The position numbers and the translations under genes were made by a program. Below, piece after piece: positions 9,476-46,425 of a stretch of 64,000 nucleotides of DNA. Source of the stretch: Natronocalculus amylovorans (lineage in GTDB: Archaea > Halobacteriota > Halobacteria > Halobacteriales > Haloferacaceae). Positions within the stretch are counted from its first letter, which is position 1. Each line of letters opens with the position of its first letter. The stretch is from contig NZ_JAKRVX010000008.1 of assembly GCF_023638035.1 (NCBI RefSeq), positions 1 to 64,000 of the forward strand. The letters run 5' to 3'. A model generated the notes under the pieces. That model made no database searches and had not been told where the DNA came from. It saw only the letters and a program-made list of their open reading frames with translations.

Positions 9476-10645
9476 ATGGATCGTCGAGCGTTCATTCGGT
9501 TGAGTCTATTGCCAGTGGGTGCAGTTGGGCTTGCAGGCTGTGCTGGTGAGGAATCTGCTAATAACGATGGTAGCTCGGTCGATGAGGATATAACTGAAAC
9601 CGAAACTGCAGAAACGGCAACAGAAAATGAAGAGAGTGAAGACAGTCCTGCTGGTGGTTTTCCGACATACGACCTACCAATGTATAGCAACTGGCCACCG
9701 GAAACGCCTCGAACAAACGATTTCGTTCTGTTCGGACATGCGAACATCCAGATTCTGCACGAAGCAGGTTCCGAAGAGGTAGAGGAAGAATCACCGGATA
9801 TTGAGGACGAAGAGAATCTGTTACTTGTATTGCCCGGATATGGATTCATAATCACCGCGTTATGGTTTCAAGTTGGGTTATGGGGATATCCGTGGCAAGG
9901 CACACTTGGGAACGATAGTGAACCGGATGGAATGGAAACCGAAGCGATCACCATGACGGAAGGAACGTTTGTATTTCATGGATCGTTTGATCCAGATCTA
10001 TTCGAAGAGACGTATGCTGATGGATTTGAAGTACAGACCAATGATAGATTCACCATTTTTGAGGGCGAACAAGGTACTGAAACCGATGGATTAGCATATG
10101 CAGTTGCGGAGAGCTCAGTCGTTGCTGGGTTACAGACTGGAGAGGGTGTTGAACATCAAGACGTGATTACGACTCTCAACGATGCAGTTGAAAACCTAAT
10201 AGCCGAAACGGGTCGTGTACGGGATACCGATGATGGTGAATTTCTCTTCGAGAGTACTGGAGACGCAGACCTAGTGACTGGGTTTTGGGATGTGAATGGA
10301 CTAGAGGAGGAAGATCTCCAGACTGGGGATGAACCACCAGATGGGTCATCAGAACTTGAAGAGAATCCAGTATTCAATACTGTTGACAGTTTTGTGAGTG
10401 TACTGACATTGCCCGCGTCTGAAGGTGGTGTTGGTGGTGACACAGTAGCGGCACGCTTTGCAGCAGTGTATCCAGAGGGCGAGGTCCCCTCAGAACAGGA
10501 GCTACGCGAGGAGTTGGTTCCAAGCGATACTGCCGAAGAAACAGCGATTACCCGATCGGATACCCGGGCACACGTTATGATTGAGGTGAGCGAAGACGAA
10601 CTGGAGCGAGAATCGGTTGCAGCCCCAAATATAACTGGTGAATAG
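9476..10645 (+). CDS. Tat-exported lipoprotein, hypothetical
   Basis: 389 residues from ATG at 9476. An ATG five codons upstream is possible, but this start gives the textbook signal: MDRRAFIRLSLLPVGAVGLAGC, a twin-arginine motif followed by a hydrophobic stretch and a lipobox ending in Cys. After the Cys comes an acidic Asn/Asp/Glu/Thr-rich linker, then a ~330-residue soluble domain. It is anchored on the outer face of the membrane. I do not recognise the folded domain. The very acidic composition fits a halophile. It is followed at 143 bases by an MFS gene on the same strand; a functional link is possible but unproved. Confidence 0.75.
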   Translation: MDRRAFIRLSLLPVGAVGLAGCAGEESANNDGSSVDEDITETETAETATENEESEDSPAGGFPTYDLPMYSNWPPETPRTNDFVLFGHANIQILHEAGSEEVEEESPDIEDEENLLLVLPGYGFIITALWFQVGLWGYPWQGTLGNDSEPDGMETEAITMTEGTFVFHGSFDPDLFEETYADGFEVQTNDRFTIFEGEQGTETDGLAYAVAESSVVAGLQTGEGVEHQDVITTLNDAVENLIAETGRVRDTDDGEFLFESTGDADLVTGFWDVNGLEEEDLQTGDEPPDGSSELEENPVFNTVDSFVSVLTLPASEGGVGGDTVAARFAAVYPEGEVPSEQELREELVPSDTAEETAITRSDTRAHVMIEVSEDELERESVAAPNITGE

Positions 10646-10787
10646 TAAGTTTATATTCGTAAGCCGGCAATTTCCGCTTACACCAATTGTACTTTGAGAA
10701 AGATATCGTAATACTGCCATCATATGGATGCCAGTACGAGGAATACAACCACACACCAGTCTGGATCTCTTATAGGTGGGCGTTTGC

Positions 10788-12056
10788 ATGAATCGTAGCG
10801 ATCGACAGATCGTATTCTTCACCGCAGGCTCACACGGACTTGTACACACGTATGAACTCGCCATCCCGATTCTCATGACTGTGTGGCTCATCGAGTTTTC
10901 AGTCACTGCAGCCCTGCTTGGAGCGGCAGTAACTGTTGGCTACGGCCTCTTTGGTGTAGGTGCACTCCCCGGAGGCATCCTCGTCGACCGGTATGGATCG
11001 AAACCACTGATTCTCGCCTCGCTGCTCGGGATGGCAGCTGCATTCCTTCTTGCAAGCCTCGCACCCTCGTTTGTAACGCTGGTTATTGCGATCGGTATCT
11101 GGGGCATTGCAGCATCCGTCTATCATCCAGCGGGGCTTGCGCTCATCTCGACATCGATCGAAAAACCAGGGGTTGCATACGGGTATCATGGGATGGGCGG
11201 AAATATCGGAATCGCACTCGGCCCGCTCGCAACAGCGGTGCTACTGACACAGTTCGACTGGCGAATCGTTGCTGCAGTGTTGACGATTCCGACAGCCATT
11301 ATCGTCGTGTATGGGCTTCTCGTCGATATCGATGATCAGACGGTCGCACCCAAAACGGAGGGGAACACAACAAACTCGGACACAAGTTCAACAAAAGGAA
11401 AACTCACAGTTGCGGCGATTCAGCGTGACACGCGCACACTATTTACACTTGGATTCTCTATTATTTTCGTCATCGTGCTGTTGAGTGGATTATACTACCG
11501 AGCGTTCCTCACATTTCTTCCGGACCTTCTTGGTGACCTTCTCGGCGGGCTCGTTGATATTTCATTGTTCGGGGAGGGCAGTGTCGTTGCCGAAGAGTTC
11601 GATATTGGACACTACTTATATGTTGGAATTCTTCTCTTTGGAATCGGGGGACAGTATCTGGGTGGATACTTAGCACAGCGGTTTGCACCAGAGCGAGCGC
11701 TCGGATATGTCTTGGCAGTCCTTGCTGGATTAGCGCTCTTGTTTGTGCCTGCTGTTGCGATCGGCGTCGTTCCATTCGTCGGGGTGGCGCTGCTGCTTGG
11801 AATTGCATTGTTTACAATCCAACCGCTCCAACAAGCAACTGTAGCTGCGTACTCACCAGAGGAGACGAGAGGGCTCTCATTTGGATACACATTCCTCGCA
11901 ATCTTTGGAATTGGTGCATTGGGGGCTGCAATTGCTGGAACAGTGCTCACAGTTGCATCGATTGATGCGCTCTTTGTAGTGCTTGCAGCGATCGCAGTGA
12001 CGGGTGCGCTTGTTGTGACAATTTTCAGACGGAACATTGTCTCATCTGGCCGATAG
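10788..12056 (+). CDS. MFS transporter
   Basis: 422 residues from ATG at 10788; an in-frame GTG lies four codons upstream. Twelve hydrophobic segments are visible. The loop 2-3 signature is GGILVDRYGSKP. A long hydrophilic linker, rich in Thr/Ser/Asn and Lys, sits between helices 6 and 7 at about residues 185-210. The segment SVYHPAGLALIS after helix 4 is typical of the fosmidomycin-resistance-like or sugar-type MFS branch. Substrate unknown. Its 3' end lies 12 bases from the convergent VOC gene. Confidence 0.88.
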   Translation: MNRSDRQIVFFTAGSHGLVHTYELAIPILMTVWLIEFSVTAALLGAAVTVGYGLFGVGALPGGILVDRYGSKPLILASLLGMAAAFLLASLAPSFVTLVIAIGIWGIAASVYHPAGLALISTSIEKPGVAYGYHGMGGNIGIALGPLATAVLLTQFDWRIVAAVLTIPTAIIVVYGLLVDIDDQTVAPKTEGNTTNSDTSSTKGKLTVAAIQRDTRTLFTLGFSIIFVIVLLSGLYYRAFLTFLPDLLGDLLGGLVDISLFGEGSVVAEEFDIGHYLYVGILLFGIGGQYLGGYLAQRFAPERALGYVLAVLAGLALLFVPAVAIGVVPFVGVALLLGIALFTIQPLQQATVAAYSPEETRGLSFGYTFLAIFGIGALGAAIAGTVLTVASIDALFVVLAAIAVTGALVVTIFRRNIVSSGR

Positions 12057-12068
12057 CTAATCAACGTG

Positions 12069-12926
12069 TTACTGCGATTGTTTCTGCGTTCGAACACGAA
12101 TCTTAATTTGATCTGGATCAGACAGTTCAAGATACGACCCGGTTGTTGTAACTGGTAAATTAGCTGTAAGACACTGCTCATGAACAGTCTCCAGTGATTC
12201 TCCATCGTTGAGATCAACGACGAACTCAAACCATGCTAACCCACACCCACCAGCAGGTTCTGCTCGGTTTTGCCATGTATTGAGACCGAGATGATGATGG
12301 TAGCCGCCAAATGCAACAAAAAGTGCGGACTCCATGGTAGTCTGGGGTGTCATTCCCAATTTGTCAACGTAGAACCCTCGGGCGCGATCGATCGACGAAA
12401 CCGCAAGATGAAGATGGCCAATAGTCGTCCCAGTAGGGGCTGTTTGGCTCCCATCAGATGATTGTGTGAGTCCATCAAGCGCAAGTGGAACCGTTCCGAT
12501 CTTGATAGTTCCGTTAGCTCTATATGGCCATGCGCCGCGTGGGCGATCAATATAGAGCTCAAGACCGTTGTTTTCGGGATCAGTGAGATACAGCGCTTCG
12601 CTAACAAGGTGGTCTGCAGCCCCATCCAAGTTCCACTCGGACTGAACTCGATCGAGTGCGGCCCCTAATGCAACATCTGTTGGGTATCTGAATGCGATAT
12701 GGAACAAGCCAGCCTGTTGTGGCGTTCGAGGCTGGGCTGATTTGTCTTCGATGAGGACAAGCAGTGGTTCTGGCCCTACACCGAGAGTTGTTGTATCCGC
12801 ACTGGTTTCAAGAACAGAGAGACCAACGATAGTGCAATAGAACGAAACCATCCGATCGAGATCTTGGACAGTTAGCGCAGCACGACCGATAGACGTTAAA
12901 TCAGAAAAAATTGATCGTGAATCCAT
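12069..12926 (-). CDS. VOC-superfamily protein (extradiol dioxygenase-like, CatE type)
   Basis: 285 residues from ATG at 12926; the longer frame upstream lacks domain character. Two vicinal-oxygen-chelate modules are present. The first starts at about residue 10 (GRAALTVQDLDRMVSFYCTIVGL) with FHIAFR and NGLELYIDRP. The second starts at about 150 (GHLHLAVSSIDRARGFYVDKLGM) with GGYHHHLGLNTW and a terminal DPDQIKIRV. The His and Glu residues that would form a metal site are visible. Proteins of this layout are called catechol 2,3-dioxygenase-like or glyoxalase; the substrate is undetermined. The adjacent catabolic island hints at an aromatic or hydroxy-acid role. Confidence 0.78.
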   Translation of the reverse strand: MDSRSIFSDLTSIGRAALTVQDLDRMVSFYCTIVGLSVLETSADTTTLGVGPEPLLVLIEDKSAQPRTPQQAGLFHIAFRYPTDVALGAALDRVQSEWNLDGAADHLVSEALYLTDPENNGLELYIDRPRGAWPYRANGTIKIGTVPLALDGLTQSSDGSQTAPTGTTIGHLHLAVSSIDRARGFYVDKLGMTPQTTMESALFVAFGGYHHHLGLNTWQNRAEPAGGCGLAWFEFVVDLNDGESLETVHEQCLTANLPVTTTGSYLELSDPDQIKIRVRTQKQSQ

Positions 12927-13293
12927 AGTCAACGATGAGTTTCTGCCCAAACAAGAAATAGTTGCGGAGCGCTCAGAGTGAACAGCATATGATCTAAGAG
13001 ACACATGGCAAAAAGGTATAATTTTTAAATTCATGTAAGGTAATTTTACTACATATATGTGTGCTTCTTTTAGGATGAAATTTATGGACTCTTTGGGTGA
13101 AATAAGTTTATCTATCGTATTTTATTGTAGATACTAAAAGAAGTATATACAATAAAATATTTTTTTGAACAGTAGATAATGTATGTTATTTGTTGTAATC
13201 TGTCTTTTGGAGATTTAGTATAATTTATAATATATATTTGAGAAGCTAGTAGACTCTCACTATTTTTAATACAGCAGCAGTCTTGGTTCAGGT
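12927..13293. other. AT-rich spacer before lhgO-like gene
   Basis: No gene is evident in these 367 bases. The stretch from about 13030 to 13270 is very A/T-rich, with many TATA-like runs. It separates two divergent genes, so it probably carries both promoters. Confidence 0.5.
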
Positions 13294-14499
13294 ATGAGTG
13301 TATATGACGTCGCCATCGTCGGCGGTGGCTGTGTCGGCAGTTCGGCTGCGATGCATCTGGCATCACAGTCGGAGCTGGATATCTGTCTAATTGAAAAAGA
13401 ACACCAGTTTGCAGCGCATCAGAGTGGGCGGAACTCAGGGGTGCTTCACCCTGGGTTCAATTACGAACCAGGTTCAACGAAAGCTAAATTTAGCACTGAG
13501 GGCACCCAGCGAATGAAAACATATGCAGCGCAGAATGATATTCCGTTGCGAGAGCTAGGTGTACTTGTCGTTGCACAGTCGCAGAAAGACTACAAAGAGC
13601 TTCGTCGACTTCACAATCAAGCCGCTGCAAATGGTGTTACAACCGAAATGTTGAACGATCGAGCCGCAATTCAGGAGATTGAACCACATGCCAGTGGGAT
13701 TGCAGCCCTTCACTGTCCAGAAGCTGCGTCGATCGATTCACAACAGTATGTCTACTCGCTCGTTCGTGATGCTGCAAACTTGGGTGTCGATCTATTTACT
13801 GGCACACAAGTCACGTCAGTGGAGTCTACAGCCACCGGAAATGTTCTTCGGACCTCGACAGGGGCGATTACAGCAGCGTTTGTCATCAATGCAGCAGGGT
13901 TGCACGCGGATACGATCGCCTCTGAGTTTGGTGTTGCAAACGAGTATCAAATTGTTCCATTCCGTGGCGAGTATTATGAACTTCGTGCGAATAAGCGTGA
14001 CCTGGTGAATACAATGGTGTATCCTGCACCCGATCCAGAGCTACCGTTCTTAGGGGTTCATTTCACGCGTCGGAGTGACGACAAAGTGATTGTCGGCCCG
14101 AATGCGGTGCTGGCATTCGGGAGAGAGGCATACAAAAACACAGACTATAATCTCGGTGACCTCCGTCAAACAGCCACATTTGGTGGTTTTTGGAAACTCC
14201 TTGCAAGCAGAAAGATGCTCTCGGTTGCGGCTGATGAACTTAACAAATCGTATCGGAAAGAAGCGTTTGTAAGCGCTGCACAGTCGCTCATCCCCGAAGT
14301 ACGGGCAGCTGACTTTACAAAAAGCTACGCAGGGATTCGAGCACAACTAGTCGGTCCCGATGGATCCCTGGTTAAACAACCACTCGTCGAGCACGGACCA
14401 CGATCGCTACACGTGCTAAATGCGGTCTCGCCTGGGCTTACGTCTTCGCTTCCGTTTGGCGAACACCTTGCAGAGGAGACGCTACAAGCGTATCCCTAG
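13294..14499 (+). CDS. lhgO: FAD-dependent oxidoreductase, L-2-hydroxyglutarate oxidase-like
   Basis: 401 residues. An N-terminal Rossmann FAD motif (VAIVGGGCVGSSAAMHLA) is followed by the family motif QSGRNSGVLHPGFNY, where LhgO/DAO-type enzymes contact FAD and substrate. Further segments (ELGVLVVAQ, GVHFTRR, and the C-terminal SPGLTSSLPFGEHLAEE) match LhgO proteins, which oxidise L-2-hydroxyglutarate to 2-oxoglutarate and pass electrons to the membrane. The length is usual. It is the first gene of the catabolic island and convergent with the iron alcohol dehydrogenase gene. The true substrate may be another 2-hydroxy acid. Confidence 0.85.
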   Translation: MSVYDVAIVGGGCVGSSAAMHLASQSELDICLIEKEHQFAAHQSGRNSGVLHPGFNYEPGSTKAKFSTEGTQRMKTYAAQNDIPLRELGVLVVAQSQKDYKELRRLHNQAAANGVTTEMLNDRAAIQEIEPHASGIAALHCPEAASIDSQQYVYSLVRDAANLGVDLFTGTQVTSVESTATGNVLRTSTGAITAAFVINAAGLHADTIASEFGVANEYQIVPFRGEYYELRANKRDLVNTMVYPAPDPELPFLGVHFTRRSDDKVIVGPNAVLAFGREAYKNTDYNLGDLRQTATFGGFWKLLASRKMLSVAADELNKSYRKEAFVSAAQSLIPEVRAADFTKSYAGIRAQLVGPDGSLVKQPLVEHGPRSLHVLNAVSPGLTSSLPFGEHLAEETLQAYP

Positions 14500-39826: not shown

Positions 39827-39891
39827 TATTCTATACTCATTACCAATTTTAAATACCGGTGGGACCAATCATTGCTGTGACTCGGGATCAT

Positions 39892-42054
39892 ATGCCAACA
39901 CTCTCAGGGAAGCTCCGAATTGATCCGTTCTCCGCAGTCCCACTTGCTGAACGAGTGGCGAGTGCGTATGACTCCCTTCGGTCAGAGGGCTATTCATCTA
40001 CAGATATTTTGGTACTAAAACGGTTTCCAAGCGGAACACGACAGTTTGAAAATGAACTCGCGCACGCGTTGACACTCGAAACCCGCCCAAACGTCGAGTC
40101 GGTTCTCGATCATGCTGCCGCAATACATGCGTACGCTGCACCTGATACCCGGGTACTTTCAGATTATGAGCGATTTGAACTCCTCCGCACAGTCATTGAT
40201 GGCTGGAATTGGTCGCATCCGTATCTCCAACAGGCAGCAGAGACCGAATCGTTTCACCGTGATGTTGGCCGTGTTCTCTTGATCTCCAGTTGGGGTGGGT
40301 TTGGTGATAGTAGCAGTGATGACCCAGCACTTGACGCGATGCTGCAGGAACTACGAGCGGTTGCGTCACAGTTTCGAACTGCACTGAAAGATCGTTCTAC
40401 AGTTGACCAAGCGGCTCTCATCGAGAGCGGCACACAAGCACTTTCGGAGCCGTCCGTCCGATCGTTTGTCTCTGAACTGTTTGATGCCGTCTTGGTTGTC
40501 GATTTTGAGGAGTTTGGTGAACTCGAACGTGCGTATCTTTCAGCACTAACTGTTGATGCGGAACTCTACTGTATTGGAGAGCGTGATGCAAGCATCCAAC
40601 GAATTTGGAACGAGGCTGGGTCGGTTGTTGCGCTCGGCGAGGCCGCGGGGTTAGACTGTTTTGAGAATCCTGCGCTTGACCGATCGGAGTTCAGTGTTAC
40701 AGACCCGGAACTAGTGAGCCAGTTCCTCGCGATAGGCCATTTTCCAAACGGGTATCTCCGTGAGCAACCGGCTGCAACTACCAATCCAACTGTAACAGCA
40801 TACACGCTCTCGGCAGCTACCTATACGGAACAGCTTGAGGCGATCGCAAACGAGATCGAAATTCTCAGAGACGAGTATGGGCTCGCATACGATGACTTTG
40901 CTGTACTGTGCAGAGATAGCAACCAACCAATCCACGAATCCCGTTCGCTCCTTCGGAGAGCAGGCATTCCAACCGCATCTGCAACGGTGACAGGACTTAA
41001 TGACGATCCAGCTGTCCGTGAATTAGTTGCTCTTATTGACGTATTGGCAACCGATGCAGAAACCGCATGGGATATCTTAGATGCTCGAGTTGGTGGTGTT
41101 TCTCAATCGGATCTCGATCGTATTGCTAATGAACCGACAATGAGCGGGACGATTGATCGCTGGATCGTAGATACAAACCTCAAAGATAGAGTCGCAAGAG
41201 CGCCTGAAATTGAGGCATATACATCCTATCGTAATATTCGAGAAGTCCGCAAAATTGCAACGTTCTTCGACACTGCTGATTTTCTTCCGGGTGGATACGA
41301 TTCGTTCCGATCGACACTGTCGCGGGCCATAGAGTACGTTGCACCTGATCAGTACACAACCGATCTATCAGTCGAGGAAAACGGTGTTCTTGTCGATGCG
41401 ATTCGTGTTGCAAAGTACGATACCCGGCCAATCGTCTTCTTAGTCGATGTTGTTGAAGGTGTGTATCCCCCTGCAACGCAGAACCTCACCCGACTGTTCC
41501 CCACAGATTGGGTCAAACGATCGAGCGGTTATCCGGGTGTCACAACACCAACGGCCGACACGGTCACTGAATCATTCTCTTCGGTTTCGGATGCCATTTC
41601 TGATCCATACGACCGTTACTACACTGCGCTTGCAAGAAGGCAACTTGCAGTTGGCTCCCGTGTTGCAACAACACGGGTGTACTTTTGTACGGCTGAAACC
41701 GGGAACCGATCGTTCGGCCAGCATAGACATCCATCGCGATTTTTGGCTGCCCTCGAAGAGCATCCTGCGGTCACGATTGAACAGGGATACTCCGACCCTG
41801 AACGTGGCGATGAATCAACTGCACTCCATACTGAGACTGGCGTTGCACGCGACATTCTCAAAGAGCCATGGCGATCGTTTGCCGAGATTGAGCGTGCAGC
41901 AAGCTTGGGTGAATCTGCGGATATGCGATCGATCCGCTCAACGCTCGAAGCAGTTACAACCGTCCTTCGTGATGAGGATGTCGACCCACGGTTTGTCGAT
42001 GCAGTTCACACACAGATTTCGTATGCAAATGGGGAGATCGGAACAGATGAGTGA
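39892..42054 (+). CDS. AddB-like helicase-fold protein without Walker A
   Basis: 720 residues from ATG at 39892; a GTG 11 codons earlier is too close to the TATA-like AATTTTAAATACC box. The domain order follows UvrD/AddB. A 1A-like start lacks any GKT loop. A degenerate motif II follows (LVVDFEEFGELERAYL in place of DEFQD), a degenerate motif III (CIGERDASIQRIWNEAG), and then a recognisable 2A domain (YGLAYDDFAVLCRDSNQPIHESRSLLRRAGIPT) and motif V-like KYDTRPIVFLVDVVEGVYPP. It is probably a structural, DNA-scanning subunit as AddB is. It overlaps the next gene by 8 bases. No nuclease domain is fused here; it is a separate gene. Confidence 0.72.
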   Translation: MPTLSGKLRIDPFSAVPLAERVASAYDSLRSEGYSSTDILVLKRFPSGTRQFENELAHALTLETRPNVESVLDHAAAIHAYAAPDTRVLSDYERFELLRTVIDGWNWSHPYLQQAAETESFHRDVGRVLLISSWGGFGDSSSDDPALDAMLQELRAVASQFRTALKDRSTVDQAALIESGTQALSEPSVRSFVSELFDAVLVVDFEEFGELERAYLSALTVDAELYCIGERDASIQRIWNEAGSVVALGEAAGLDCFENPALDRSEFSVTDPELVSQFLAIGHFPNGYLREQPAATTNPTVTAYTLSAATYTEQLEAIANEIEILRDEYGLAYDDFAVLCRDSNQPIHESRSLLRRAGIPTASATVTGLNDDPAVRELVALIDVLATDAETAWDILDARVGGVSQSDLDRIANEPTMSGTIDRWIVDTNLKDRVARAPEIEAYTSYRNIREVRKIATFFDTADFLPGGYDSFRSTLSRAIEYVAPDQYTTDLSVEENGVLVDAIRVAKYDTRPIVFLVDVVEGVYPPATQNLTRLFPTDWVKRSSGYPGVTTPTADTVTESFSSVSDAISDPYDRYYTALARRQLAVGSRVATTRVYFCTAETGNRSFGQHRHPSRFLAALEEHPAVTIEQGYSDPERGDESTALHTETGVARDILKEPWRSFAEIERAASLGESADMRSIRSTLEAVTTVLRDEDVDPRFVDAVHTQISYANGEIGTDE

Positions 42055-42928
42055 AGCACAAGTGATCCCAATTGACCATATCGCAACATATCTTTCCTGC
42101 CCGCGAAGATATGAGTACGAACACGAGTTGTCGATCCAGCCTGATTCTGCCCAACAACGAGATGAACTGGCAGTATCGCTTGCCCGTGAAGCGATCATTC
42201 GTGGACTTACGGCAGGTGACGACACTGAAGAGATGATCGCCGCAGCACGATCACACCTTCGCACAACGGATTCACGCACCACAAAAAGGAGCCGAAAGCA
42301 GCAGTATCTACAGGAGATGAGAGTTCGCGCAATTGAATCATATCTTCAACAGTTTGGAACCGCCCACGGCGATTCGATTATTGATACTGATCTCACGCTT
42401 CGATATGGGCTCTCGGGTGTTACACTGTCCTGTCCAATCGATGCTCTTGTTCGGATCGGTGACAAGCCAGTCGCAATTCGGTATCGTTGGTCGCTTGATT
42501 CGGTTGCGTTTGCAAACTCCTATACGACGATCGATCGCCATACAAGCGGTCGCAGCTACATTCCATGGGCTGCAGGGAGCGTGATAACTGCCACTGCGAC
42601 GATCGAAGCCCTCATTCACAACGATCGATTTGCATTCTCGGAGACGCCCGGATTTGCCTTTGTTGGCCTCACAGAGGAAACGACTGCTGGCGGTGATTCC
42701 AACTCATCAGTTCCGGTTGTCTCCGCAGCAGTACGGCGGCTTGATGAACACTACCAATCCGAGCACCGAAAAGCGCTTTCAGTGCTTGATAACACGTTAA
42801 CGTGGATCACAAATCGTGCGTTCAATCCACAGGATCGGATTGATCAAATCCTCGACTCGGAGTGTGAGAGCTGTCCATATGCCGAATTTTGTTCGGAGTG
42901 GATCAACAATGAGGTGATGTTTCGATGA
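42047..42928 (+). CDS. Cas4/AddB-type Fe-S nuclease-like protein, catalytic motif degenerate
   Basis: 293 residues from ATG at 42047; a much longer upstream frame overlaps the AddB-like gene and was dropped. Near the N-terminus is YLSCPRRYEYEHEL, and at the C-terminus CESCPYAEFC. These four Cys match the 4Fe-4S cluster that staples RecB/Cas4/AddB nuclease domains. The core resembles PD-(D/E)XK (LSCPIDALVRIGDKPVAIRYRW), but where (D/E)-X-K is expected the sequence reads RYR. So the fold and cluster seem kept while the active site seems lost. It overlaps the neighbours by 8 and 4 bases and is clearly part of their complex. Confidence 0.72.
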   Translation: MSEAQVIPIDHIATYLSCPRRYEYEHELSIQPDSAQQRDELAVSLAREAIIRGLTAGDDTEEMIAAARSHLRTTDSRTTKRSRKQQYLQEMRVRAIESYLQQFGTAHGDSIIDTDLTLRYGLSGVTLSCPIDALVRIGDKPVAIRYRWSLDSVAFANSYTTIDRHTSGRSYIPWAAGSVITATATIEALIHNDRFAFSETPGFAFVGLTEETTAGGDSNSSVPVVSAAVRRLDEHYQSEHRKALSVLDNTLTWITNRAFNPQDRIDQILDSECESCPYAEFCSEWINNEVMFR

Positions 42929-45900
42929 CTACAGAACGCTCTGAAGAGACGACCAATTCCGACCTCGATGAAGAGTTTATCCTCAAAGGGAATCAGCCTG
43001 CAGTAGCAACTACAACGGCCGATCGAATTGTCGTTGACGCGGGTGCTGGAACGGGCAAGACAACGACGATGGTCGCTCGGATTGAGGCGCTTTTGGAGGC
43101 TGAGACCGTTACTCCCGACGAGATTCTTGTGTTAACGTTCGCAAATAAGGCGGCACATGGTGCGATTGATCGGCTCACCGATTCGCTCTCTGGAACAGAC
43201 GCCTTCGATATTGATGCGTACACCTATCACTCGTTCTGTTACGGTATTCTTAGAGAGTACGCGTATGCCGTTGGTATGTCCCCTGACTTCGAACTGTTAA
43301 CCGATGATAGACAGCGAGCGATAATCGGCTCAATTCATGATTCGCTCACATTCACTCATACAACTCCCGAGCGGGCAACCGCGGCTGACCTAACAAAGTT
43401 CATTGAGACATTCAGAAACGCAGGCATTGGACCGGATACGATCGAAGAGACGCTTCCGGATCCTGCGTTGGTGTCTCAACTTGCAACAATCGTTCGAGAA
43501 CTCAAACAAACAGCGGATCAACAGTTTGGTGCCGACAGCGAGGGAAGCCTCGCATTCCGATCAAAAAACGGCCACCCAAGACTTGTGAAACGGCTGGAAA
43601 GATTCAAAAATGTGCTGTCCTACCAACGATCGTTGATTGACACCAGCGACCCGTTTGGTGAACACGTTCAGACGTATCTCTCACACTGTTTGTCGATCGT
43701 CGAGACGCTTATCACTGTACTTCCAGATAAGAATGATGATTGGTCACGGGTTCCATCTGGGCTGTTTGGAACGTGGAGCGGCGTTCATGGGGCTTCACTC
43801 AAAGACACCAAACAAACACCGATCAGCCGACTGGATTCGTTGTTGGAGCTGTTTGCAAGAGCACATACATTCTGTGCGGGCTACCGCCAGTATGAGCAGG
43901 TGCTCACGGAGCGTGATGCGATCGACTACGCTGGCTTAATTCGCCGTACAACCGAGTTATTGGAGAGCGATCTTGGAACGGATATCTGCGACCGGTACAC
44001 ACATATCTTCTGCGACGAGTTCCAGGATACCGATAGTGCGCAACTGTCACTCGTTGCGGCGCTTTCAGCCGACCAATCCGTCTTTGTGATCGGTGATGCT
44101 GACCAAGCAATATACGAATGGCGTGGTGCAGATCCAACAAACATCACTGATATTGCGTCTGTCTTTCCAACGATTGAGCCGATGGAACTGGATTTAAACT
44201 TCCGATCATACCAGCCGATCCTCGACCTCTCAAATGCACTTCCTGGAAGTACGAAAACGTTGCAGTCCACACGTGGTACGGCTCCAAACAGCGTCCTGAC
44301 TGTCAGTGCAGACCGTGAGAAACCTATCCAAGCATCGCAAGTAAGCAGCACCGTCTCCAACCTGCTCACTGGGGGTTTTGAGGATATTGAGACGCATAAC
44401 CTTGGTGACATTGCAATCTTAGTTCGGCAGAATTACGAGGCTGATCTCATCTGCGCCGCGCTCGCTGACGATAGTATTCCATATACTCGCTCCGGTGGGA
44501 CACACGATTCAATGCCTGTTGGAATCACAACATTGCTTGCCTACCTTCGTGTGCTTGTTGACCCTACTGACGATCGGTCTCTCATTCGTGTGCTCAAACT
44601 TGTCTACCGGATTCCTGATTCAGATATTCGAATTCTAGCCCGACAGGGAGAGACTGTTATTGCTGGCCTTCGAGAAGCGGTTGATTCGCTCGCACATCCC
44701 GATCGAGCGACGCGTGCACTCAACGATATCACGGAACTTACTGAGCTACGGCGGAGTAGCTCTCTTTCGGCATTATATGGAACACTCTGTACGCAGACGA
44801 AAATCAAATGGACGTTCACCGATCGTGACAGAGCGCTGATTCCTGCGCTCGAATCTCGGATCGATGCGTTTTCCGAGACTGCAACCGATGGTCGTCTCAC
44901 TGCTGGATTCATTCGATATTTGGATGATCCTGCTGCACTGGAGTCCGCTCGAACGCTGGATTCGGATGCTGGTGAAAAAAGCGAAAATGCGGTGGATGTT
45001 ATGACTGTCCACCAGGCGAAGGGGCTTGATTTCCCAGTCGTGCTGCTCCCATTTTTAGGCCCCTCATGGGCACCGCCACCCAGCTTCAATCTCTGGCGTG
45101 ATACGTCAGATTGGTCTGTGCTTGAACAGTTTTGTACGGGATCGCTTGCATCACCACTTATGGAATCACTTTCTGATACCGCCGCGGCAGAACAGTGGCG
45201 AGTGCTTCACGTTGCGATCACTCGTGCCCGCGATCGGCTTGTGCTCTTTGGAAACAGTGAGACGCACGCAACTGTGCACGCATCAGCGCTTGATCCGTTG
45301 CTCCCTACCGGCATTGGGTGGTCGCATGGTGGGGCGAGCGTTGATACGTGGGCTGCTGTCTCTGACGCGATCGAGTCCCTCACTCAAACCGAAGCAGTTG
45401 GGGCGGAAGCTGACACCGATCACCGTATCGCCACAGCAAAAACGGACCAAGAGGATCACAAACGTGCAGTCACCGATATCACTACTGCTGTCGAAGTAGC
45501 TCGAAAGCAGACGCCTGAACAAATAACATGGTATGATGGGTCAACCGTCTCCGCTGATCGAGCAATCAGCGAGATCCGATCGCTCACCCGATCGATCAAA
45601 GATGGAACGATCTCAATACACGACTCACAGACGGAAACCCGGTACAATGCTGTCCCATCACAAGTAACACGAAGCGATTCGCTTCCTCGAATCCACAGCC
45701 ATACAGCTCTTGAAACGTTCGGTGACTGTTCACGAAAGCATTATCTCGACCATGTTGTGTATGGAATTTCGGATCCTGTTGCCACTGATTCAGAAACAGA
45801 CGATTCGGTGCCGTGGCAGGAGGTCGGAACCCTCTTTCACCACGTCGCAGAGGATGCCTACTGGCGTTCGCTCACGACACAACCCCAATGGAACGATGCT

Positions 45901-46425
45901 TGTGATCGGCTCGCACGAGAACATGGGCTTCAATCGGCCGTTCCACACGCCAAGCAGTGTATCGAGCGATATTTCCAGAGTGAAGTCACGGAGTGGGAGC
46001 TAAAAGCCGTTGAAGTTCCATTCTCTCTTGACCATCTTGCAGAGAGATCAGGGGCGGATGCGGTTACTGGATACATTGATGCAGTTTACAAAAATATCGA
46101 TGATGAATTGGTTGTACTTGATTACAAATCGACAGACGGTGATCGATCACTTGAAACGAGCTACCAGCTCGTACTGTATCTGTTAGCCGCCGATGCCAGG
46201 TTCTCAGAGCAGGTTGCTGGCGCTGGCTATCTCTCACTTGGAGCGTCCGGTCCAACATGTACTGTGTTCGACCGCCAGTCGCTCTTAGCACAAATCCCAT
46301 CGCTGATGGAGCAGCTCTCGAAAGCGACCAATTCGACGTACTATTCGACGACACCTGGCACACACTGTCGGTACTGCCCACATCGATCGCTAGGTTGTGG
46401 ACCGGCTGATGATGAACCGCTGTAA
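42925..46425 (+). CDS. UvrD/AddA-like helicase with C-terminal PD-(D/E)XK Fe-S nuclease
   Basis: 1166 residues. Superfamily 1 helicase motifs are intact: Walker A DAGAGTGKTTT (about 38-48), Walker B FCDEFQDTD (about 360), motif III VIGDADQAIYEWRGA, motif IV LDLNFRSYQPI, motif V TVHQAKGLDFPVV, motif VI LHVAITRARDRLVLFG. The C-terminal ~250 residues form an intact RecB-type nuclease: LFHHVAEDAYW, GYIDAVY, LDYKS and the QLVLY helix. The 4Fe-4S Cys set is FGDCSRKHY plus HCRYCPHRSLGC. It would be the motor and nuclease of a DNA end-processing complex. The start overlaps the previous stop (ATGA). Confidence 0.9.
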   Translation: MTTERSEETTNSDLDEEFILKGNQPAVATTTADRIVVDAGAGTGKTTTMVARIEALLEAETVTPDEILVLTFANKAAHGAIDRLTDSLSGTDAFDIDAYTYHSFCYGILREYAYAVGMSPDFELLTDDRQRAIIGSIHDSLTFTHTTPERATAADLTKFIETFRNAGIGPDTIEETLPDPALVSQLATIVRELKQTADQQFGADSEGSLAFRSKNGHPRLVKRLERFKNVLSYQRSLIDTSDPFGEHVQTYLSHCLSIVETLITVLPDKNDDWSRVPSGLFGTWSGVHGASLKDTKQTPISRLDSLLELFARAHTFCAGYRQYEQVLTERDAIDYAGLIRRTTELLESDLGTDICDRYTHIFCDEFQDTDSAQLSLVAALSADQSVFVIGDADQAIYEWRGADPTNITDIASVFPTIEPMELDLNFRSYQPILDLSNALPGSTKTLQSTRGTAPNSVLTVSADREKPIQASQVSSTVSNLLTGGFEDIETHNLGDIAILVRQNYEADLICAALADDSIPYTRSGGTHDSMPVGITTLLAYLRVLVDPTDDRSLIRVLKLVYRIPDSDIRILARQGETVIAGLREAVDSLAHPDRATRALNDITELTELRRSSSLSALYGTLCTQTKIKWTFTDRDRALIPALESRIDAFSETATDGRLTAGFIRYLDDPAALESARTLDSDAGEKSENAVDVMTVHQAKGLDFPVVLLPFLGPSWAPPPSFNLWRDTSDWSVLEQFCTGSLASPLMESLSDTAAAEQWRVLHVAITRARDRLVLFGNSETHATVHASALDPLLPTGIGWSHGGASVDTWAAVSDAIESLTQTEAVGAEADTDHRIATAKTDQEDHKRAVTDITTAVEVARKQTPEQITWYDGSTVSADRAISEIRSLTRSIKDGTISIHDSQTETRYNAVPSQVTRSDSLPRIHSHTALETFGDCSRKHYLDHVVYGISDPVATDSETDDSVPWQEVGTLFHHVAEDAYWRSLTTQPQWNDACDRLAREHGLQSAVPHAKQCIERYFQSEVTEWELKAVEVPFSLDHLAERSGADAVTGYIDAVYKNIDDELVVLDYKSTDGDRSLETSYQLVLYLLAADARFSEQVAGAGYLSLGASGPTCTVFDRQSLLAQIPSLMEQLSKATNSTYYSTTPGTHCRYCPHRSLGCGPADDEPL

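Follow-up and report, generated by a model that had tools for sequence, protein, structure and literature searches.

We identified in the haloarchaeon Natronocalculus amylovorans three overlapping genes, A, B and C, whose products probably assemble as subunits into a helicase-nuclease of the AddAB/RecBCD type that acts in the processing of DNA ends, with C as its sole motor and nuclease. Homologous loci fall into two types, in which the catalytic motifs of B are either complete (type I) or lost (type II), and the copy studied here, of type II, would most likely be a one-motor, one-nuclease end-processing complex of this kind. We infer complex formation, polarity, end processing and a role in repair from the genes, their folds and motifs, and their clustering.

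In archaea, the resection of DNA ends is attributed to Mre11-Rad50 together with HerA-NurA. RecBCD, AddAB and AdnAB are considered pathways of bacteria (PMC6452273). With a conserved AddAB/RecBCD-like trio, roughly one haloarchaeal genome in three would have a second end-resection route, which can be tested in laboratory haloarchaea, and the two types offer a natural comparison between otherwise equal gene sets with one nuclease or two. No published description of the three-gene set was found in the open literature; most subscription papers fall outside that search, and an earlier description is possible.

The window, i.e. the whole stretch of 64,000 nucleotides that was analysed, spans positions 1 to 64,000 of contig NZ_JAKRVX010000008.1 (C19:1-64000), has a G+C content of 49% and belongs to a 3.26-Mb genome that is 99% complete. 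The three ORFs lie head to tail on the plus strand, with A at 39892..42054 (720 aa), B at 42047..42928 (293 aa) and C at 42925..46425 (1166 aa), and these coordinates bear out the overlaps given in the preliminary description: 8 bases between A and B (A ending at 42054, B starting at 42047) and 4 bases, ATGA, between B and C (B ending at 42928, C starting at 42925). A TATA-like TTTTAAATA spotted by eye at 39847..39855 on the plus strand is a possible promoter element of the operon, and because of its position we favour the ATG at 39892 as the start of A over an alternative GTG at 39859, which would make the protein 11 codons longer. The operon is preceded on its 5' side by a CobB/CobQ-CbiA-type gene and followed on its 3' side by an AIR-synthase-related gene on the opposite strand. 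No repair gene of known kind flanks this copy, and none of the six flanking genes had a match within the other fetched loci in a shared-synteny check.

Gene A encodes a UvrD/AddB-like helicase-fold protein that is predicted to be inactive. Searched as a single sequence against Pfam, its sole notable match was a weak one to UvrD_C (1.1e-4, below cut-off), and the profile of its family retrieved Bacillus subtilis AddB as the top match among PDB sequences (1.7e-9). The structure model (mean pLDDT 84) matched UvrD/PcrA and AddB in Foldseek at about 1e-21 to 1e-22, AddB having the highest query-normalised TM-score among the matches listed (0.62). The Walker A motif of a motor is absent from A in the window and from 86/86 non-redundant homologues, and Pfam revealed no nuclease domain in A.

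Gene C encodes an SF1 helicase fused to an Fe-S RecB-type nuclease, with Pfam matches to the UvrD N- and C-terminal domains and to PDDEXK_1 (9.7e-24). Inspection located the Walker A motif (GAGTGKTT) at 43042..43065 and motif II, Asp364-Glu365, at 44014..44019 as part of a full set of SF1 motifs, and the nuclease domain at 45697..46389, all on the plus strand. The latter is accompanied by the residues D1052, D1066-Y-K1068 and Q1081/Y1085 and by the cysteines Cys935, Cys1148, Cys1151 and Cys1158. C is the sole member of the trio in the window with complete helicase and nuclease motifs; its residues for both functions are kept in nearly all loci, and the H/D/D/K/Q/Y set of the nuclease in 85/85 alignment rows reaching that domain. 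PADLOC lists GajB models of the Gabija system for C, matches that we attribute to the shared UvrD helicase part; the flanking proteins gave no Gabija partner in PADLOC, and this assignment was rejected.

Gene B matches PDDEXK_1 in Pfam (2.3e-7), and its family profile yielded chance-like matches only against PDB sequences. Its model (mean pLDDT 90) adopts a PD-(D/E)XK fold, whose nearest structures are the Fe-S nuclease of AdnA, ACE1 (an Argonaute-associated Cas4-family protein) and AddB. Given this resemblance, four cysteines of B probably bind an Fe-S cluster, namely Cys18 (42098..42100, plus strand), which is invariant in 41 aligned loci, and Cys273, Cys276 and Cys282 (42863..42892, plus strand); all four are invariant in 86/86 non-redundant loci. 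Asp132 is kept, and the D-x-K motif is degenerate, R145-Y146-R147 standing in its place (42440..42487 from Asp132 onwards, plus strand), while the His and Q-x-x-x-Y are gone. Judged from these residues, B of the window is a PD-(D/E)XK protein by fold only and is predicted to be catalytically dead.

Profile searches of the three proteins, as the preliminary description had proposed, thus led from A to AddB, from B to PDDEXK_1 and from C to UvrD plus PDDEXK_1. Its view of A as a UvrD/AddB fold lacking Walker A and of C as a helicase with all SF1 motifs and an intact Fe-S nuclease agrees with our results. For B, described there as a stand-alone Fe-S PD-(D/E)XK-like protein and as a second nuclease split off into its own gene, the fold, the four cysteines and the separate gene stand, but active catalytic motifs do not. 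Moreover, a tree of nuclease domains, with long branches and little support at its deep nodes, sets B apart as a lineage of its own, and neither an origin of B as a copy of the nuclease of C nor its descent from a piece of methanogen AddB was adopted. Cas4 models gave weak scores with B, and no cas gene was seen among those recurrent neighbours that carry an annotation; a Cas4/CRISPR assignment was therefore set aside.

The trio is conserved as a unit and patchily distributed in haloarchaea. Homologues of A were found in 79 of the 243 sampled genomes of the order (about one third), representing 38/78 genera, and 16 plasmid records carry one; no phage record matched A. Each of the 40 loci retrieved at the outset had the complete A-B-C set, as did 117 of 121 in total (the window, 40 loci from the survey and 80 named haloarchaeal loci), numbers that argue for clustering beyond chance. 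In the four remaining loci, whose contigs measure 6.3 to 25 kb, a complete C was not found, and one of the 117 complete loci has a 1-kb gap ahead of the C ORF. A and B are separate genes in every locus with the set. The expectation that the genes would be clustered in other haloarchaea was therefore borne out, but only in the third of genomes that have them. In a wider survey of the phylum, genomes beyond the order gave weak matches, and those retrieved proved to be other helicase-nucleases.

The catalytic motifs of B are all-or-none among the 86 non-redundant loci. In type I (38/86), the His, the Asp, D-x-K and Q-x-x-x-Y are all complete; in type II (48/86, window included), each of the 48 loci has lost D-x-K and Q-x-x-x-Y, has another residue in place of the His (Arg in 46) and keeps the first Asp. 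From C sequences a tree was built by a quick method, leaving B out and with long branches flagged; in it one branch (SH-aLRT 100) separates type I from type II. Active motifs being usual in the superfamily, loss of catalysis in B is the most likely origin of type II. The strict retention of the four Fe-S cysteines after that loss is what a structural subunit predicts, and since every type II B (48/48) keeps these cysteines and the first Asp, we rejected the reading of B as a pseudogene in decay. The two types also differ in where they are found: type I occurs in several families, with some loci on plasmids, and type II mostly on Natrialbaceae contigs, many of its loci lying near uvrA, CBS-domain or NUDIX-like genes (uvrA upstream in 13).

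A parallel in gene order comes from several other genomes of the phylum, in which an unsplit AddB-like protein (about 1020-1050 aa) is encoded ahead of an AddA-like one. In hhalign comparisons, A aligns to the N-terminal part of the methanogen AddB (98%, 2.5e-14), and the C-terminal nuclease of that AddB, with its cysteines, aligns to B (96%, 6.5e-9); because A and B match its two parts in order, together they are equivalent to AddB in layout. The methanogen AddB differs in being one protein with an intact D-Y-K. Such fused AddB-like genes, directly before an AddA-like gene in an archaeal two-gene AddAB, were seen in methanogen-type genomes at loci L175, L176, L178, L179, L180 and L182. Further candidates for fused A-B relatives (L169-L174, L177, L181) were rejected, their profiles showing solo active UvrD-Cas4-type fusions.

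Similar correspondences hold with bacterial AddAB (B. subtilis, PDB 3u44 and 4cej), in which A resembles the inactive helicase-fold N-terminus of AddB, B its C-terminal Fe-S nuclease fold, and C the active helicase-nuclease partner. The haloarchaeal set differs from it in the splitting of the AddB equivalent into two genes, in the predicted loss of its nuclease activity in type II and in the Fe-S cysteines that the nuclease of C has of its own. The NCBIfam cut-offs were not reached, C scoring 151 bits vs 707.65 for addA_Gpos and A far below the addB cut-off. The second active nuclease of AddAB is missing from B of the window and present in type I only. Like Escherichia coli RecBCD, type II has one active nuclease by its motifs, in the RecB-like subunit, and RecC also combines inactive helicase and nuclease folds, the counterpart here of A plus B; the RecC-like part is nevertheless made of two proteins and keeps its Fe-S cysteines. 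No RecD-like (5'-3' helicase) gene was found among the genes of the cluster. On this comparison of motifs, the catalytic make-up of type II is nearer to RecB plus RecC than to AddAB. The RecBCD-type set proposed in the preliminary description thus survives as an AddAB/RecBCD-like architecture, without its second nuclease: with B predicted to be dead in the genome of the window and in 48/86 loci, we regard type II as a one-nuclease system. Mycobacterial AdnAB provides, in the Fe-S nuclease domain of AdnA, the fold closest to B, but both of its subunits combine motor and nuclease, whereas A has neither motor motifs nor nuclease and the haloarchaeal set comprises three genes.

A plausible working model follows the bacterial enzymes. 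Loaded on a double-strand end, the complex would unwind the DNA by means of C, probably with 3'-5' polarity because C is of SF1A type, and cut it with the nuclease of C. A and B together would replace AddB/RecC, holding and scanning the DNA as C pulls and cuts. A, as an inactivated helicase fold, would probably guide or scan the strand that C displaces, and B, as a dead nuclease fold, may use its Fe-S cluster for structure or for binding DNA ends. The Fe-S cluster matters for DNA-end binding in AddAB-type enzymes. The inactive helicase domain of AddB/RecC is the Chi scanner and includes an ionic latch (PMC4824097). The role of the complex would be break resection and possibly destruction of linear foreign DNA. 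For type II we lean towards repair end processing over defence, given its mostly Natrialbaceae distribution, the 13 loci near uvrA and the defence neighbours found at type I loci and missing from its own. Several points count against this model: the patchy distribution, unusual for a core repair enzyme; the defence context of type I; the window copy's lack of a flanking repair gene of known kind; the resemblance of C to AddA, which is surpassed by that to solo UvrD-Cas4 fusions; and the presence in haloarchaea of NurA-family proteins and, in this genome, of a second AddAB-like pair.

The neighbours of type I open other readings. In the fetched flanks, type I loci adjoin genes for a prokaryotic Argonaute (pAgo; 14/38), a PLD protein (15/38) and an AAA_14/DUF4143 ATPase (17/38), as well as Mrr-type and methylase genes, whereas none of these was found at the 48 type II loci. 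A recurrent order, exemplified by L058, L059, L062, L067, L141 and L146, is the AAA_14/DUF4143 ATPase on the opposite strand, pAgo, PLD, A, B and C, then an ATPase, Mrr or methylase gene. Together, pAgo and PLD make up the APAP (pAgo-AgaP) immune system already known from haloarchaea, and the authors who described it mention a helicase-encoding gene adjoining some operons (PMC11442185). The direct adjacency of type I trios to pAgo-PLD operons identifies the kind of helicase noted there (PMC11442185). The window trio differs in having neither pAgo nor PLD beside it. Piwi matches occurred in 22 of 243 genomes surveyed, that of the window not among them, and for 8 of the 22 Piwi genes the distance to an A gene was about 10 kb or less. 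A transposase-like ORF lies beside six loci of both types (e.g. L063:18241-19485).

We tentatively consider that these loci form a haloarchaeal split-AddB lineage of its own in two forms, type I partnering APAP by feeding fragments to Argonaute or clearing its targets, and type II turned to RecBC-like chromosomal repair; this possibility falls short of even odds. Less likely still, the trio would be primarily an anti-plasmid and anti-virus DNA degrader rather than a repair enzyme, type II being a chromosomal derivative of the Argonaute-linked type I. The neighbours of type I, the proximity of Piwi and A genes, the plasmid-borne homologues and the patchy distribution fit such a degrader, but the type II loci, with none of these neighbours and many near uvrA, CBS-domain or NUDIX-like genes, and the genome of the window, devoid of a Piwi match, speak against it.

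UvrD-Cas4 fusion proteins have been described (PMC5704561), and they share the architecture of C (SF1 helicase plus Cas4-like Fe-S nuclease) and are its closest profile match: solo methanogen fusions score about 1e-100 vs about 1e-72 for methanogen AddA. Those found here stand without A and B, so that C might act alone as such a helicase-nuclease with A and B as regulators or accessory proteins and no AddAB-like complex; this we consider improbable, as the three genes stay together in 117/121 loci and the folds of A and B are those of the two halves of AddB.

The AddAB/RecBCD-type complex that we favour should also be set beside the other end-processing candidates of these genomes. A review reports HerA-NurA as missing in Haloferax volcanii (PMC7776575). 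Pfam NurA matches were present in 89/99 haloarchaeal genomes, H. volcanii included, and at two places in the genome of the window (G000:C20:7051-7899 and G000:C12:456467-457396); for this reason, the idea that the trio fills a gap left by absent HerA-NurA was dropped. The second AddAB-like pair lies on the same contig as the trio, at about 107.8-113.4 kb (G000:C19; L075:7834-10614 and 10589-13426), where a gene for a 926-aa PDDEXK_1 protein overlaps that of a 945-aa UvrD/RecB-like helicase-nuclease. The 926-aa protein has matches in 41/99 sampled genomes of the order.
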